Assembly (NCBI GenBank): GCA_934394665.1
Contig: CAKRRS010000087.1
Location: 1-11,303, forward strand
Length of the DNA: 11,303 nucleotides
Source of the DNA: an uncultured Acetatifactor sp.
GTDB lineage: Bacteria > Bacillota > Clostridia > Lachnospirales > Lachnospiraceae
Direction: 5' to 3'
Below the pieces are notes generated by a model. The model did no database searches, had not been told where the DNA came from, and saw nothing but the letters and a program-made list of their open reading frames with translations. A program made the position numbers and the translations under genes. Shown here in pieces: positions 1 through 7,037 of this stretch (positions are counted from its first letter, which is position 1; every line of letters begins with the position of its first letter).

Positions 1-217
1 TCAAAGTACGCCCGCTAAGTACCGGCGTCTGTTTACGGTCAGCTTATTCTTATATGCAACCGGGGCTACTGGTTTACGGAAAGCTTTTGTACCAAAGTGC
101 CCCAAAAGCACCAAAAAAGTACAAAAACATAGCTTTTTGCATTTGAAAACAGTATTATTTTCTCAAAAACATGATTACCCTTCCGTTTGGTACAAAAAAT
201 TTAATTTTTTCTAGTTT

Positions 218-246
218 TTTGTATCAGAAAAGTAATTTTATGCCAA
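218..246 (-). promoter_or_regulatory. Candidate sigma-A promoter of a leftward gene outside the window
   Basis: On the minus strand TTGGCA (241-246) is followed after exactly 17 nt by TACAAA (218-223). The -35 is a good match and the -10 is fair. A LacI-type palindrome lies 6 bp upstream of the -35. If used, the transcript would run left for more than 200 nt without a coding region in view. It is assigned by motif only. Confidence 0.35.
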
Positions 247-252
247 TTTGCG

Positions 253-264
253 AAAAACGTTTTT
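253..264. promoter_or_regulatory. LacI-type operator, site A
   Basis: AAAAACGTTTTT is a perfect 12-bp palindrome centred on CG, the usual form of LacI-family operators. It shares its core with the palindrome upstream of glgP (3112-3125) and sits directly upstream of a candidate leftward promoter. CcpA or the LacI-family protein encoded at 3169-4158 could bind it. The choice between them is inference. Confidence 0.5.
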
Positions 265-295
265 AAAGCAAAATTCAGGAATGCTCAAGAAAACA

Positions 296-537
296 GGACT
301 CCCAGAACGGACAGAATGCCTTCTGGAAGCTGTTTGTCGGAGAGTGTTGATATTCCCTTAAGAAGTGGTCGGGAAACAGGGAGGAGCGAACACGATGTTC
401 GCGACAGCCGATTCGCGCCATGGATGGCGCGTGTAGGCGACCCGTCCCTCTACCATATATGATATCCACTTCTTTAGGGAATTCACACTCGGAGACGTTA
501 CAGCTGCCAGAAGGCATTCTGTTCGTTCCGGGAGTCC
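296..537. repeat. Large imperfect inverted repeat with nested hairpins (possible MITE/BIME-like element or structured RNA)
   Basis: The left arm (296-368) and right arm (466-537) are inverted copies, about 58 of 73 positions pairing. The outermost ~38 bp are nearly perfect, starting GGACTCCC and ending GGGAGTCC. A stretch in the middle of each arm has diverged. The 97-bp centre has its own helices: AGGGA (378-382) with TCCCT (445-449), enclosing hairpin GCGAAC/GTTCGC (386-402, loop ACGAT) and hairpin CGCGCCAT/ATGGCGCG (414-431). The whole would fold as a long stem ending in a branched head. It starts 41 nt after the glgP stop and both outer ends are followed by T-rich sequence, so it may also end transcription. 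I see no clear target-site duplication and no transposase. Small open frames through it are by-products of the symmetry. Confidence 0.8.
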
Positions 538-578
538 GTCCCTTTTGCTTAATTAACTTGCCATTTTAATCGTATATC

Positions 579-2849
579 TTACTTCAATTTCCAGATATCT
601 CTGTTGTACTCCGCAATGGTTCTGTCGGAAGAGAAGAATCCGGCCTTGGCGATATTCACCAGCATCATCTTCTTCCATTTCTGCTGGTCCTCATAATCAG
701 CGAATGCCTGATCCTTGACTTTGATGTAGTCTTCCAGATCGAGCAGCGTCATGAACCAGTCTTTGTTCAGCAGTTCGTTGTACAGGCGCTCCAGATTCTC
801 CTTTTTGCCGACCTTAAGAACTTCCTTGCTGACGATGAAGTCCACTGCCTCTTTGATCACAGGGCTCTTCTTATAGTAGTCTCTGGACACATAATCTGCC
901 TTCTCGTAGTGCTTGATGACAGTATCGCTGTCCTGACCGAAGATATAGATATTGTCATCGCCTACCAGTTCATGGATCTCTACGTTTGCACCATCGCTGG
1001 TACCCAGCGTTACGGCACCGTTCAGCATGAACTTCATGTTACCGGTTCCGGATGCTTCCTTGGAAGCCAGAGAAATCTGCTCGGAAATATCACAGGCAGG
1101 GATCAGCTTTTCAGCATAGCTTACATTATAGTTTTCAACCATTACCAGCTTCATGTAAGGACTGACTTCAGGATCGTTGTTGATAATGTCAGACATTACC
1201 AACAGGAGATGAATGATATCCTGTGCGATCACATAAGCAGGTGCAGCCTTGGCACCGAAGATGAAGGTTAACGGGGTAGAAGGCTTCTTGCCACCCTTGA
1301 TCTCCAGATATTTATGAATAATATACAGTGCGTTCATCTGCTGACGCTTATACTCATGCAGACGCTTTACCTGAATGTCGAAGATGGAATCCGGATTCAG
1401 TTCCACACCTTCCTTTTCCTTGATATAAGATACCAGTTCTGTCTTCTTGGTCTTCTTAATATCGTAGATGGCATCCAGTACGGCCTGATCCTCCTTATGC
1501 TCCAGAAGCTTCTGCAATTCATCGGCGTCCTTCTTGTAGCCGTCACCAATGGTCCGGCTCAGGAAAGCTGCCAGTTCATGGTTGCAGGACAGCAGCCATC
1601 TGCGGAACGTAATACCGTTGGTCTTGTTGTTGAATTTTTCAGGATAGATCTTGTAAAAATGGTTCAGTTCGCTCTGTTTCAGGATCTCGGTATGAATGGC
1701 AGCCACACCGTTGACGCTGTAACCATAGTGGATATCGATATGTGCCATATGCACTCTCTTATCCTTGTCGATGATCTGTACCTTTTCATCTTTGTATTTC
1801 TTTGCCACACGGTCGCTGAGCTCTTTGATAATGGGAACCAGCTGGGGCACTACTTCCTCAATGTAAGCCAGAGGCCATTTTTCCAGAGCTTCTGCCAGAA
1901 TGGTGTGGTTCGTATAAGCACAGGTACGGCTTACGACATCAATGGCTTCATCCATGGTGAAGCCTTCCTCGGTGGTCAGGATACGGATCAGTTCGGGGAT
2001 AACCATGGTCGGATGGGTATCATTGATCTGAATCGCTACATGCTCCGGCAGGGTATGCAGGTCATAACCTTTTTCCTTCACTTCCTTCAGGATCAGCTGC
2101 GCACCGTTACATACCATGAAGTATTCCTGGTAGATACGAAGCAGATTGCCTGCCTCATCGGAATCATCGGGATACAGGAACAGGGTCAGGTTCTTCTCAA
2201 TGGCTTCCTTGTCAAAGGTAATGCCCTTCTTTACCAGACTCTCATCGACGGTCTCTACATCAAACAAATGCAGCTTATTCAGTCCGTTTTCATAACCTAC
2301 GACATCAATGTCATAAAGTACAGAGGTTACCTTGCGCTTGCCAAATGCCACTTCGAACTTCGTGCCGGTATTGTTCAGCCAGGAATCCTTCTGGATCCAG
2401 TCATTCTTCTCCGCATTCTGCAGATGATCCTTGAACACCTGCTTGAACAGGCCGAAGTGATAATTCAGACCGATGCCGTCTCCGGGATATCCCAGGGTAG
2501 CGATAGAATCCAGGAAGCAGGCTGCCAGTCTTCCTAAGCCTCCGTTACCCAGAGAGGGTTCCGGTTCTGCCTCTTCGATATCTGCCAGGTTCTTACCGTT
2601 CTTCTTCAGGATCTCGTTCAGTTCTTCATAGATTCCTAAGTTGATCAGGTTGTTGGATAACAGCTTACCGATCAAAAACTCCATGGAAATATAGTATACT
2701 TTCTTATCTCCGGTGATCACAGGAGTCTCTGCCATTTTCTCTTTTGTCAGCTGCAATACGCCGGTATACAGCTGGGCATCGGTGCAGGCACTGATGTTCT
2801 TGCCATATAATTTTCCGGTGATCTCGTTTAAATTCTGCTCTAAATTCAT
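579..2849 (-). CDS. glgP: Glycogen/maltodextrin phosphorylase (GT35 family)
   Basis: A cytoplasmic PLP-dependent enzyme that splits alpha-1,4-glucan with phosphate to release glucose-1-phosphate. The protein aligns along its whole length with E. coli-type GlgP. Clear family blocks are [10 protein letters not shown] near the N-terminus, [43 protein letters not shown], and the cofactor block [10 protein letters not shown] with the PLP lysine at about residue 606. At 756 residues it is slightly shorter than the E. coli enzyme, within the range for Bacillota, and looks complete. I chose the ATG at 2849 rather than the one at 2861 because GAGGA (2855-2859) is a good ribosome binding site for the inner ATG, whereas the outer one has none. 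It is preceded by a long structured leader and a LacI-type operator, with a LacI-family gene next upstream, suggesting control by alpha-glucan or glucose status. Glycogen versus maltodextrin preference cannot be read from sequence. Confidence 0.96.
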
Positions 2850-2865
2850 TTCAATCCTCATTTCT

Positions 2866-4281: not shown

Positions 4282-4329
4282 GGCACAGATCACCGGAAGA
4301 CGATACCGTTTGTCAATCATGCAAGCGTG

Positions 4330-4359
4330 TTGACTTGCTTGCGCTCATGTTATCATACT
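4330..4359 (+). promoter_or_regulatory. Candidate tadA promoter overlapped by an inverted repeat
   Basis: TTGACT (4330-4335) is a strong -35. The -10 could be TATCAT (4351-4356, 15-bp spacing) or CATACT (4354-4359, 18 bp); neither spacing is ideal. GCAAGC (4321-4326) and GCTTGC (4337-4342) form an inverted repeat that brackets the -35 hexamer, where a repressor could sit. The 4159-4469 gap contains this promoter, the weak lacI promoter and operator-like site C, and no gene. Confidence 0.45.
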
Positions 4360-6708: not shown

Positions 6709-6781
6709 GATAAACGCGGCTTAAGCCGGCTCGCTGTCATCTATGAAAGGCTCTGCTGCAAATGCTCTGCAGAATCGCTGC

Positions 6782-6810
6782 TTGACAAAAGCATGCAGAA
6801 ACGATAAACT
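6782..6810 (+). promoter_or_regulatory. Promoter of the SRP RNA gene
   Basis: TTGACA (6782-6787), a perfect -35, is followed after 17 bp by TAAACT (6805-6810). Transcription would start at about 6817, exactly where the terminal helix of the SRP RNA begins. Such a strong, simple promoter fits an abundant stable RNA. Confidence 0.75.
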
Positions 6811-6816
6811 AAAAAA

Positions 6817-6982
6817 GCCGTATGTGTCGGGCTGCCATGTCATGGTGATGAAACTCGGTCTTACGCAATGGGAATCTACGAACCGTGTCAGGTTGGGAAC
6901 AAAGCAGCACTAAGTAGAACCTTCCATGTGCCGTGAGGAAACTGGGTGGAGCTTTTGGTCATGGTCCGGCATGTACGGTTTT
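6817..6982 (+). ncRNA. ffs: Signal recognition particle RNA (4.5S/scRNA type)
   Basis: The RNA partner of Ffh, needed for co-translational targeting of membrane proteins. The conserved Ffh-binding tip is clear. GTCAGG (6887-6892) leads into TTG, the tetraloop GGAA (6896-6899), CAA, and then AGCAGCA (6903-6909), the symmetric-loop signature. The ends form a continuous 13-bp helix with G-U pairs: CCGTATGTGTCGG (6818-6830) with CCGGCATGTACGG (6966-6978), followed by TTTT. At about 166 nt it is longer than the E. coli RNA and much shorter than the B. subtilis scRNA of about 270 nt. I do not see an Alu domain. The ends are inferred from the helix and the promoter. No separate hairpin terminator is evident beyond the terminal helix and the following T-rich stretch. 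Confidence 0.9.
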
Positions 6983-7037
6983 GATATTTGTATATTTTTT
7001 CAGGCATTCCAAAGCAATCAGATAAGAGGTCGTAAAT

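Follow-up and report, generated by a model that had tools for sequence, protein, structure and literature searches.

The TwoAYGGAY hairpin beside glgP is probably one module of a repeated, MITE-like terminal-repeat element

The closest described systems are summarised here from excerpts of the papers cited. MITEs such as Correia/NEMIS, RUP and ERIC are small repeated sequences with TA-ended terminal inverted repeats and a long stem-loop (PMC2229807). IS1272 and TnSha1, of the IS1182 family, encode or carry a transposase and are reported to insert at stem-loops or terminators in both orientations, with loss of the target hairpin and no target duplication (PMC5678879, PMC4923244); IS1272 elements have been found in one and the same terminator in both orientations (PMC4923244). 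In P. fluorescens, dispersed, hairpin-forming intergenic repeats show a tail-to-tail bias (PMC2718517), and the REP unit is a palindrome of 20-40 bp tagged GTAG or CGTC (PMC3733652). Weinberg et al. (2010) rated the TwoAYGGAY motif as a likely RNA that is unlikely to be cis-regulatory, with a range covering human gut, gamma-Proteobacteria and Clostridiales (PMC2864571); its Rfam type is cis-regulatory (RF01731). CsrA binding was proposed for it by Gardner & Eldai (2014; PMC4333381), and a 2025 preprint describes unequal stability of its two loops (PMC11661157). In the portions of the open-licence literature available, no description of TwoAYGGAY as mobile, or of a Lachnospiraceae MITE of this kind, was found. 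The element described below shares with the excerpted MITEs the repetition, the TA-ended terminal inverted repeats and the long stem-loop, but is larger and modular, contains an Rfam motif and often ends on stop codons. Its likeness to IS1272 and TnSha1 is one of behaviour and not of sequence, in that their reported mode of insertion would explain its flanks (PMC5678879, PMC4923244, in the parts used). It is dispersed, hairpin-forming and biased towards tail-to-tail placement like the P. fluorescens repeats, while the TwoAYGGAY copies of P. fluorescens have flanking sequence different from its own.

The hairpin lies at positions 296-537 of the window, the whole stretch of 11,303 nucleotides that was analysed. 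The preliminary description had claimed a 242-bp inverted repeat of two paired arms with an inner stem and two hairpins in its centre, and this was borne out. The outer arms on the + strand, 296-333 on the 5' side and 500-537 on the 3' side (the latter followed by GTCCCTTTTGC), are 38 nt each and 92% complementary; the inner arms, 352-368 and 466-482 on the same strand, are 17 nt long, show 94% complementarity and enclose 97 nt. Both head hairpins are present on the + strand. The first, at 386-402, reads GCGAACA-CGA-TGTTCGC and has lost the GGA of the family (loop region ACGAT), and the second, at 414-431, reads CGCGCC-ATGGAT-GGCGCG and carries a CsrA-type GGA in a hexaloop closed by C-G. A GGG at 379-381 (+ strand) would close the junction of the head with CCC at 441-443, as read from the sequence and not predicted by a tool. 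The + strand of 280-550 folded at -146.6 kcal/mol, against -82.3 +/- 4.8 kcal/mol in 200 shuffles (z -13.3), and the - strand of the hairpin region gave a z of -14.7. The hairpin is therefore real and far beyond chance.

Positions 335-497 of the + strand, the core of the hairpin, were identified as TwoAYGGAY RNA with a covariance-model score of 102.2 bits, the gathering cut-off being 43. The window copy shares with the family the two-hairpin head on a long stem, but the feature that gives the family its name, two AYGGAY loops, is kept in hairpin 2 (ATGGAT) while hairpin 1 (ACGAT) is one G short. To our knowledge TwoAYGGAY, first described in 2010, has remained an orphan family with no established role.

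The search for further copies that had been proposed for this hairpin was run on relatives of the window organism (G002, a member of the Lachnospiraceae; G640; and G001, a Roseburia) and on wider samples. Window GlgP is 98% identical to its G002 counterpart, and G640 is about as near; G640 is congeneric, coming from the genus sample of G002. Every place inspected in it lay on one contig, and most of the window is matched there by a single syntenic stretch. There were 41 TwoAYGGAY matches in G001, 16 in G002 and 30 in G640, and at least 60 in a P. fluorescens genome, where 150 of 267 candidates were scored. The hairpin is thus not single-copy, and many of the copies have conserved ends. The cores of eight of the 30 G640 copies are identical, and 127 pairs of G640 elements aligned over more than 90% of both members were 96.6% identical in the median and 99.6% at most. 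The G001 copies form hairpins of mostly 230-290 bp and gave only four short flank matches among the 20 loci read; since they share almost no flanks, the composite element set out next is a feature of the window's genus and not of TwoAYGGAY generally. At nine P. fluorescens loci that were read (L123, L127, L130 and six more), TwoAYGGAY was seen inside a longer, closely similar dispersed repeat, and a C4 antisense RNA with its target lies near one of these copies (L123 2593-2784).

In G002 and G640 the motif sits between inverted terminal repeats of roughly TAA[AC]T[TGA]GA[GA]AGTTAG and its complement. When up to one mismatch was allowed, the 14-base terminal end was matched 39 times in G002 and a reversed-pattern control not once, and both terminal repeats (at most two mismatches) were present at 24 of the 30 G640 copies. 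The elements so delimited measure 465-698 bp in G640, which would be short for a transposase gene, and six in G002 measure 421-1071 bp. Their modules follow one order: terminal repeat, a second hairpin module, a variable spacer, TwoAYGGAY, sometimes a further module, and the other terminal repeat. The further module in G002 (L171 1242-1374, L172 790-931) weakly resembles Clostridiales-1 RNA (RF01699), at 34 bits below the cut-off of 48, and G002 also has two elements with the same terminal repeats and no TwoAYGGAY (L256 1094-1514, L257 1501-2421). A scan of viral contigs for the terminal repeat gave one match per contig, which looks like chance.

The window copy corresponds to the right part of such an element. 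Positions 1-75 (+ strand) are the 3' part of the second hairpin module, here called type B, which forms the far end of the element and whose 5' part lies beyond the window; six stretches from loci of G002 match them at 76-88% identity, and 22 of the 24 G640 elements do so at 82-86%. An AT-rich, copy-variable spacer follows at 76-290, shortened to a few bp in the G640 copies matched, then the hairpin at 296-537, and at 553-568 on the - strand the right terminal inverted repeat, slightly decayed by comparison by eye; its reverse complement begins TAAAATGGCAAGTTAA, where the common G640 form is TAAATGGAAAGTTAG. In the AT-rich spacers (L172 1211-1600, L175 1211-1450 and window 76-290), words were apparently repeated in both orientations and differed by copy when compared by eye. 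The 242-bp unit of the preliminary description is accordingly a real hairpin but only one module of a longer element which includes 1-75 and 553-568. We consider, with a probability of about 0.78, that the inverted repeat forms the TwoAYGGAY module within a MITE-like terminal-repeat element that is repeated in the genus and probably mobile. Mobility is suggested by the identity of the copies together with their matching ends, and the earlier option of a mobile miniature element is supported by the 30 copies, 24 terminal-repeat pairs and eight identical cores of G640. The decayed right repeat of the window, and the position of the left end beyond it, count against this reading, as do the near lack of shared flanks among the G001 copies, the small share of G002 ends on stop codons (given below) and, for a role as terminator, the failure of any terminator-like site to score in window 1-700.

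The ends of the elements frequently coincide with stop codons. Among frames of at least 128 codons, 21 of the 48 G640 element ends are the TAA stop of the neighbouring frame; such ends occur in 17 of the 24 elements, four of which have two. Of 434 intergenic TA dinucleotides in the background, outside the elements, 20 belong to a stop codon (p about 5e-13 for 17/24). In G002, only four of the 12 ends of the six elements fall on a stop codon. The C-termini of the stop-abutting frames look natural to the eye, which is demonstrated for glgP only. The element ends are mostly TA. Plain insertion into the TA of a stop codon predicts that the base beyond the far TA completes TAA or TAG; by our own reading of the flanks, 12 of the 17 stop-abutting G640 elements misfit, four fit and one could not be judged, and plain insertion was rejected for the misfits. 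The flanks appear to fit hairpin replacement better. The 12 misfits would be explained by hairpin replacement as reported for IS1272 and TnSha1, and also by deletions adjoining the element. One gene-element junction is common to G002 and G640, with the interior of the element in opposite orientation. On the reading of a mobile terminal-repeat element, it would be moved in trans by a putative transposase that, like that of IS1272, replaces hairpins (terminators) behind stop codons, and it would be tolerated at gene ends, where its TAA end would restore the stop codon and its long hairpin could end transcription. If general, such docking at stop codons would offer a mobile element an elegant means of inhabiting a gene-dense genome harmlessly. 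It is a speculation, and we regard it as quite improbable in full, that a mobile family settles at stop codons in place of the terminators there and supplies a terminator of its own with a CsrA-binding head. Transposition would then rewire the set of genes whose RNA ends respond to CsrA or titrate it, and TwoAYGGAY would be the RNA cargo of a transposon family across Clostridia and gamma-Proteobacteria.

The glgP gene of the window (579-2861, - strand) has its stop codon 10 bp beyond the terminal repeat. Its C-terminal residues are the same in the window, G002 and G640, and glgP is therefore not truncated. An element of this family is found near glgP in all three congeneric species examined, at different points. 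In G640 it ends on the glgP stop, between glgP and an ABC-F-like gene (named by eye from its C-terminus). In G002, glgP retains a terminator-like hairpin, as seen by eye, and the element lies further out in the opposite orientation; no such hairpin was scored in window 1-700. We read the three as separate insertions. Outside the genus, 20 glgP regions were examined in 19 genomes that bear the motif; some of the regions were cut by contig ends, and two (G213 and G127) had a copy within about 400 bp. The copy of G213 and that of the window lie at like distances from glgP, 81 and 82 bp, and their arms are unrelated. G213 has two copies between an upstream gene and glgP (L236 678-845 and 1039-1204), on opposite strands and with unrelated arms.

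CsrA-type proteins prefer GGA in hairpin loops. CsrB/RsmZ-type CsrA-binding RNAs likewise present GGA in hairpin loops closed by C-G, but TwoAYGGAY is scattered in many copies, usually with two loops each and with no promoter signal. The alternative that survives best follows the proposal of Gardner & Eldai (2014): TwoAYGGAY would be a CsrA-sequestering RNA transcribed from the + strand, with AYGGAY loops that titrate CsrA, and every copy would add sites. We hold this to be tentative and rather doubtful, and we are just as hesitant about the narrower claim that the GGA loop of the window element also binds CsrA. The loops vary in a manner that spares GGA, since among 104 copies 74 had at least two GGA loops, 25 had one and five had none, leaving at least one in 99. 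Co-occurrence with CsrA was strong in raw counts, where motif presence is a lower bound because nine candidates per genome were scored in the Lachnospiraceae and eight in the Clostridia. Of 299 Lachnospiraceae genomes, 45 had the motif (43 of them above its cut-off) and 154 had CsrA (152 above its own), CsrA being present in 44 of the 45 motif-bearing genomes and in 110 of the 254 others (p 2e-13). Among 341 Clostridia genomes, CsrA was present in 27 of 32 motif carriers (23 over the cut-off) and in 84 of the 309 others (p 3e-10), and after removal of five positives common to the family sample in 22 of 27 carriers (p 3e-8). A glgP tree was made for 105 of the 299 genomes, selected because a good glgP match was available. 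On this tree, motif presence was scattered with 24 state changes, and CsrA was found in 26 of 27 carriers and 53 of 78 others (p 0.0035). However, an independent-pairs test gave 2.3 pairs in the same direction, 0.3 in the opposite direction and 11.3 with no difference (median p 0.5), and CsrA may be expected to travel together with motility genes, which is a possible confounder. Six carriers had no CsrA match and no FliW either; a single copy was read from each of these six, and in every case it retains both GGA loops. The co-occurrence is nevertheless a checkable lead on the printed CsrA hypothesis.

The strand of the copies also speaks against sequestration. In 54 of 76 Lachnospiraceae copies (44 of the 76 being from G001 and G002) and 19 of 28 class-level copies, the gene on the 3' side turns its stop codon towards the element, at a median distance from the core of 73 bp and 85 bp, respectively; in 20 of 76 and nine of 28 it turns its start. 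The strand bearing GGA is thus mostly antisense to the abutting gene. No sigma-70 type promoter signal was found upstream of the + strand in 96 copies (best score 5.56, against 5.70 in shuffles), and no promoter was found in window 1-700. The window copy has a single GGA loop, and G-U pairs, counted below, are nearly absent. The GGA loop of CsrA type suggested in the preliminary description is plausible in that such loops persist and raw co-occurrence is strong, while strand, promoter and pairing evidence are unfavourable to it. Two further indicators of strand were tried and dropped: the copies of G339 were co-oriented with replication in 12 of 18 cases, which is not significant by our own reckoning, and the outer arms had 202 G-U against 146 A-C pairs overall and 113 against 120 with G002 subtracted, favouring neither strand.

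Covariation, which had been suggested as a sign of RNA, was abundant: in an alignment of 32 sequences both-sided changes were found at 29 of 30 consensus pairs, with 284 both-sided and 22 one-sided changes by our own sums. But G-U pairs were scarce. The 822 pairs of 112 head hairpins included nine G-U and six A-C, and the 2663 pairs of 101 inner arms included 32 G-U, 37 A-C and 270 other mismatches, compared with 19 G-U and five A-C among 263 pairs in a small control of 26 terminators. G-U being scarce and no commoner than A-C points to upkeep of the palindrome at the level of DNA, by selection or by template-switch repair, and with such upkeep possible, covariation alone is no proof of RNA. 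That TwoAYGGAY is a high-copy repeat, carried in one genus by a terminal-repeat element, likewise changes how its covariation is to be read. A second alternative is that the DNA itself, as a cruciform or single-strand hairpin, is recognised by a protein and that the RNA fold is incidental. The almost purely Watson-Crick stems of heads and inner arms, set against the control terminators, and the excess of both-sided changes would agree with this, yet template-switch repair of palindromes would yield the same pattern with no function of the DNA, and the strand-specific conservation of the loops would demand a separate reason. Of 60 genomes, 45 had a head that folds a little better as + strand RNA and 14 had the reverse, which loop energies could explain. 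We judge recognition at the DNA level unlikely.

We regard it as very unlikely that the hairpin is an immobile two-way terminator, or a stabiliser of mRNA ends, that evolved in place. The placement of the copies at gene 3' ends (the same 54 of 76 and 19 of 28 that face a stop codon) would suit it, as would hairpin edges that are A-rich on the left and T-rich on the right, although these T runs are modest and stand without a control; on such features a terminator function may be supposed. Against it are the near-identical terminal-repeat copies at unrelated loci, the lack of any terminator-like site scored in window 1-700, and the size of hairpins of this kind, mostly 230-300 nt, far larger than terminators, as the preliminary description had already remarked of the window hairpin. 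A single-copy regulator of glgP was rejected, as copies occur genome-wide and 18 of the 20 glgP regions outside the genus, some cut by contig ends, showed none within about 400 bp. The idea of a structured RNA that comes from the 3' region of glgP is unsupported because the GGA-bearing strand is antisense to glgP. The locus is only loosely BIME-like, in being palindromic and repeated, but a REP unit measures 20-40 bp and the hairpin, at 242 bp, is six to twelve times as long, which places it outside the REP/BIME class by size.

Elsewhere in the window, a bacterial large SRP RNA was found at 6760-6995 on the + strand with 102.8 bits, and a stretch of 52 bp at 4306-4357, perhaps another small repeat, had three further matches of 85% identity in G640.
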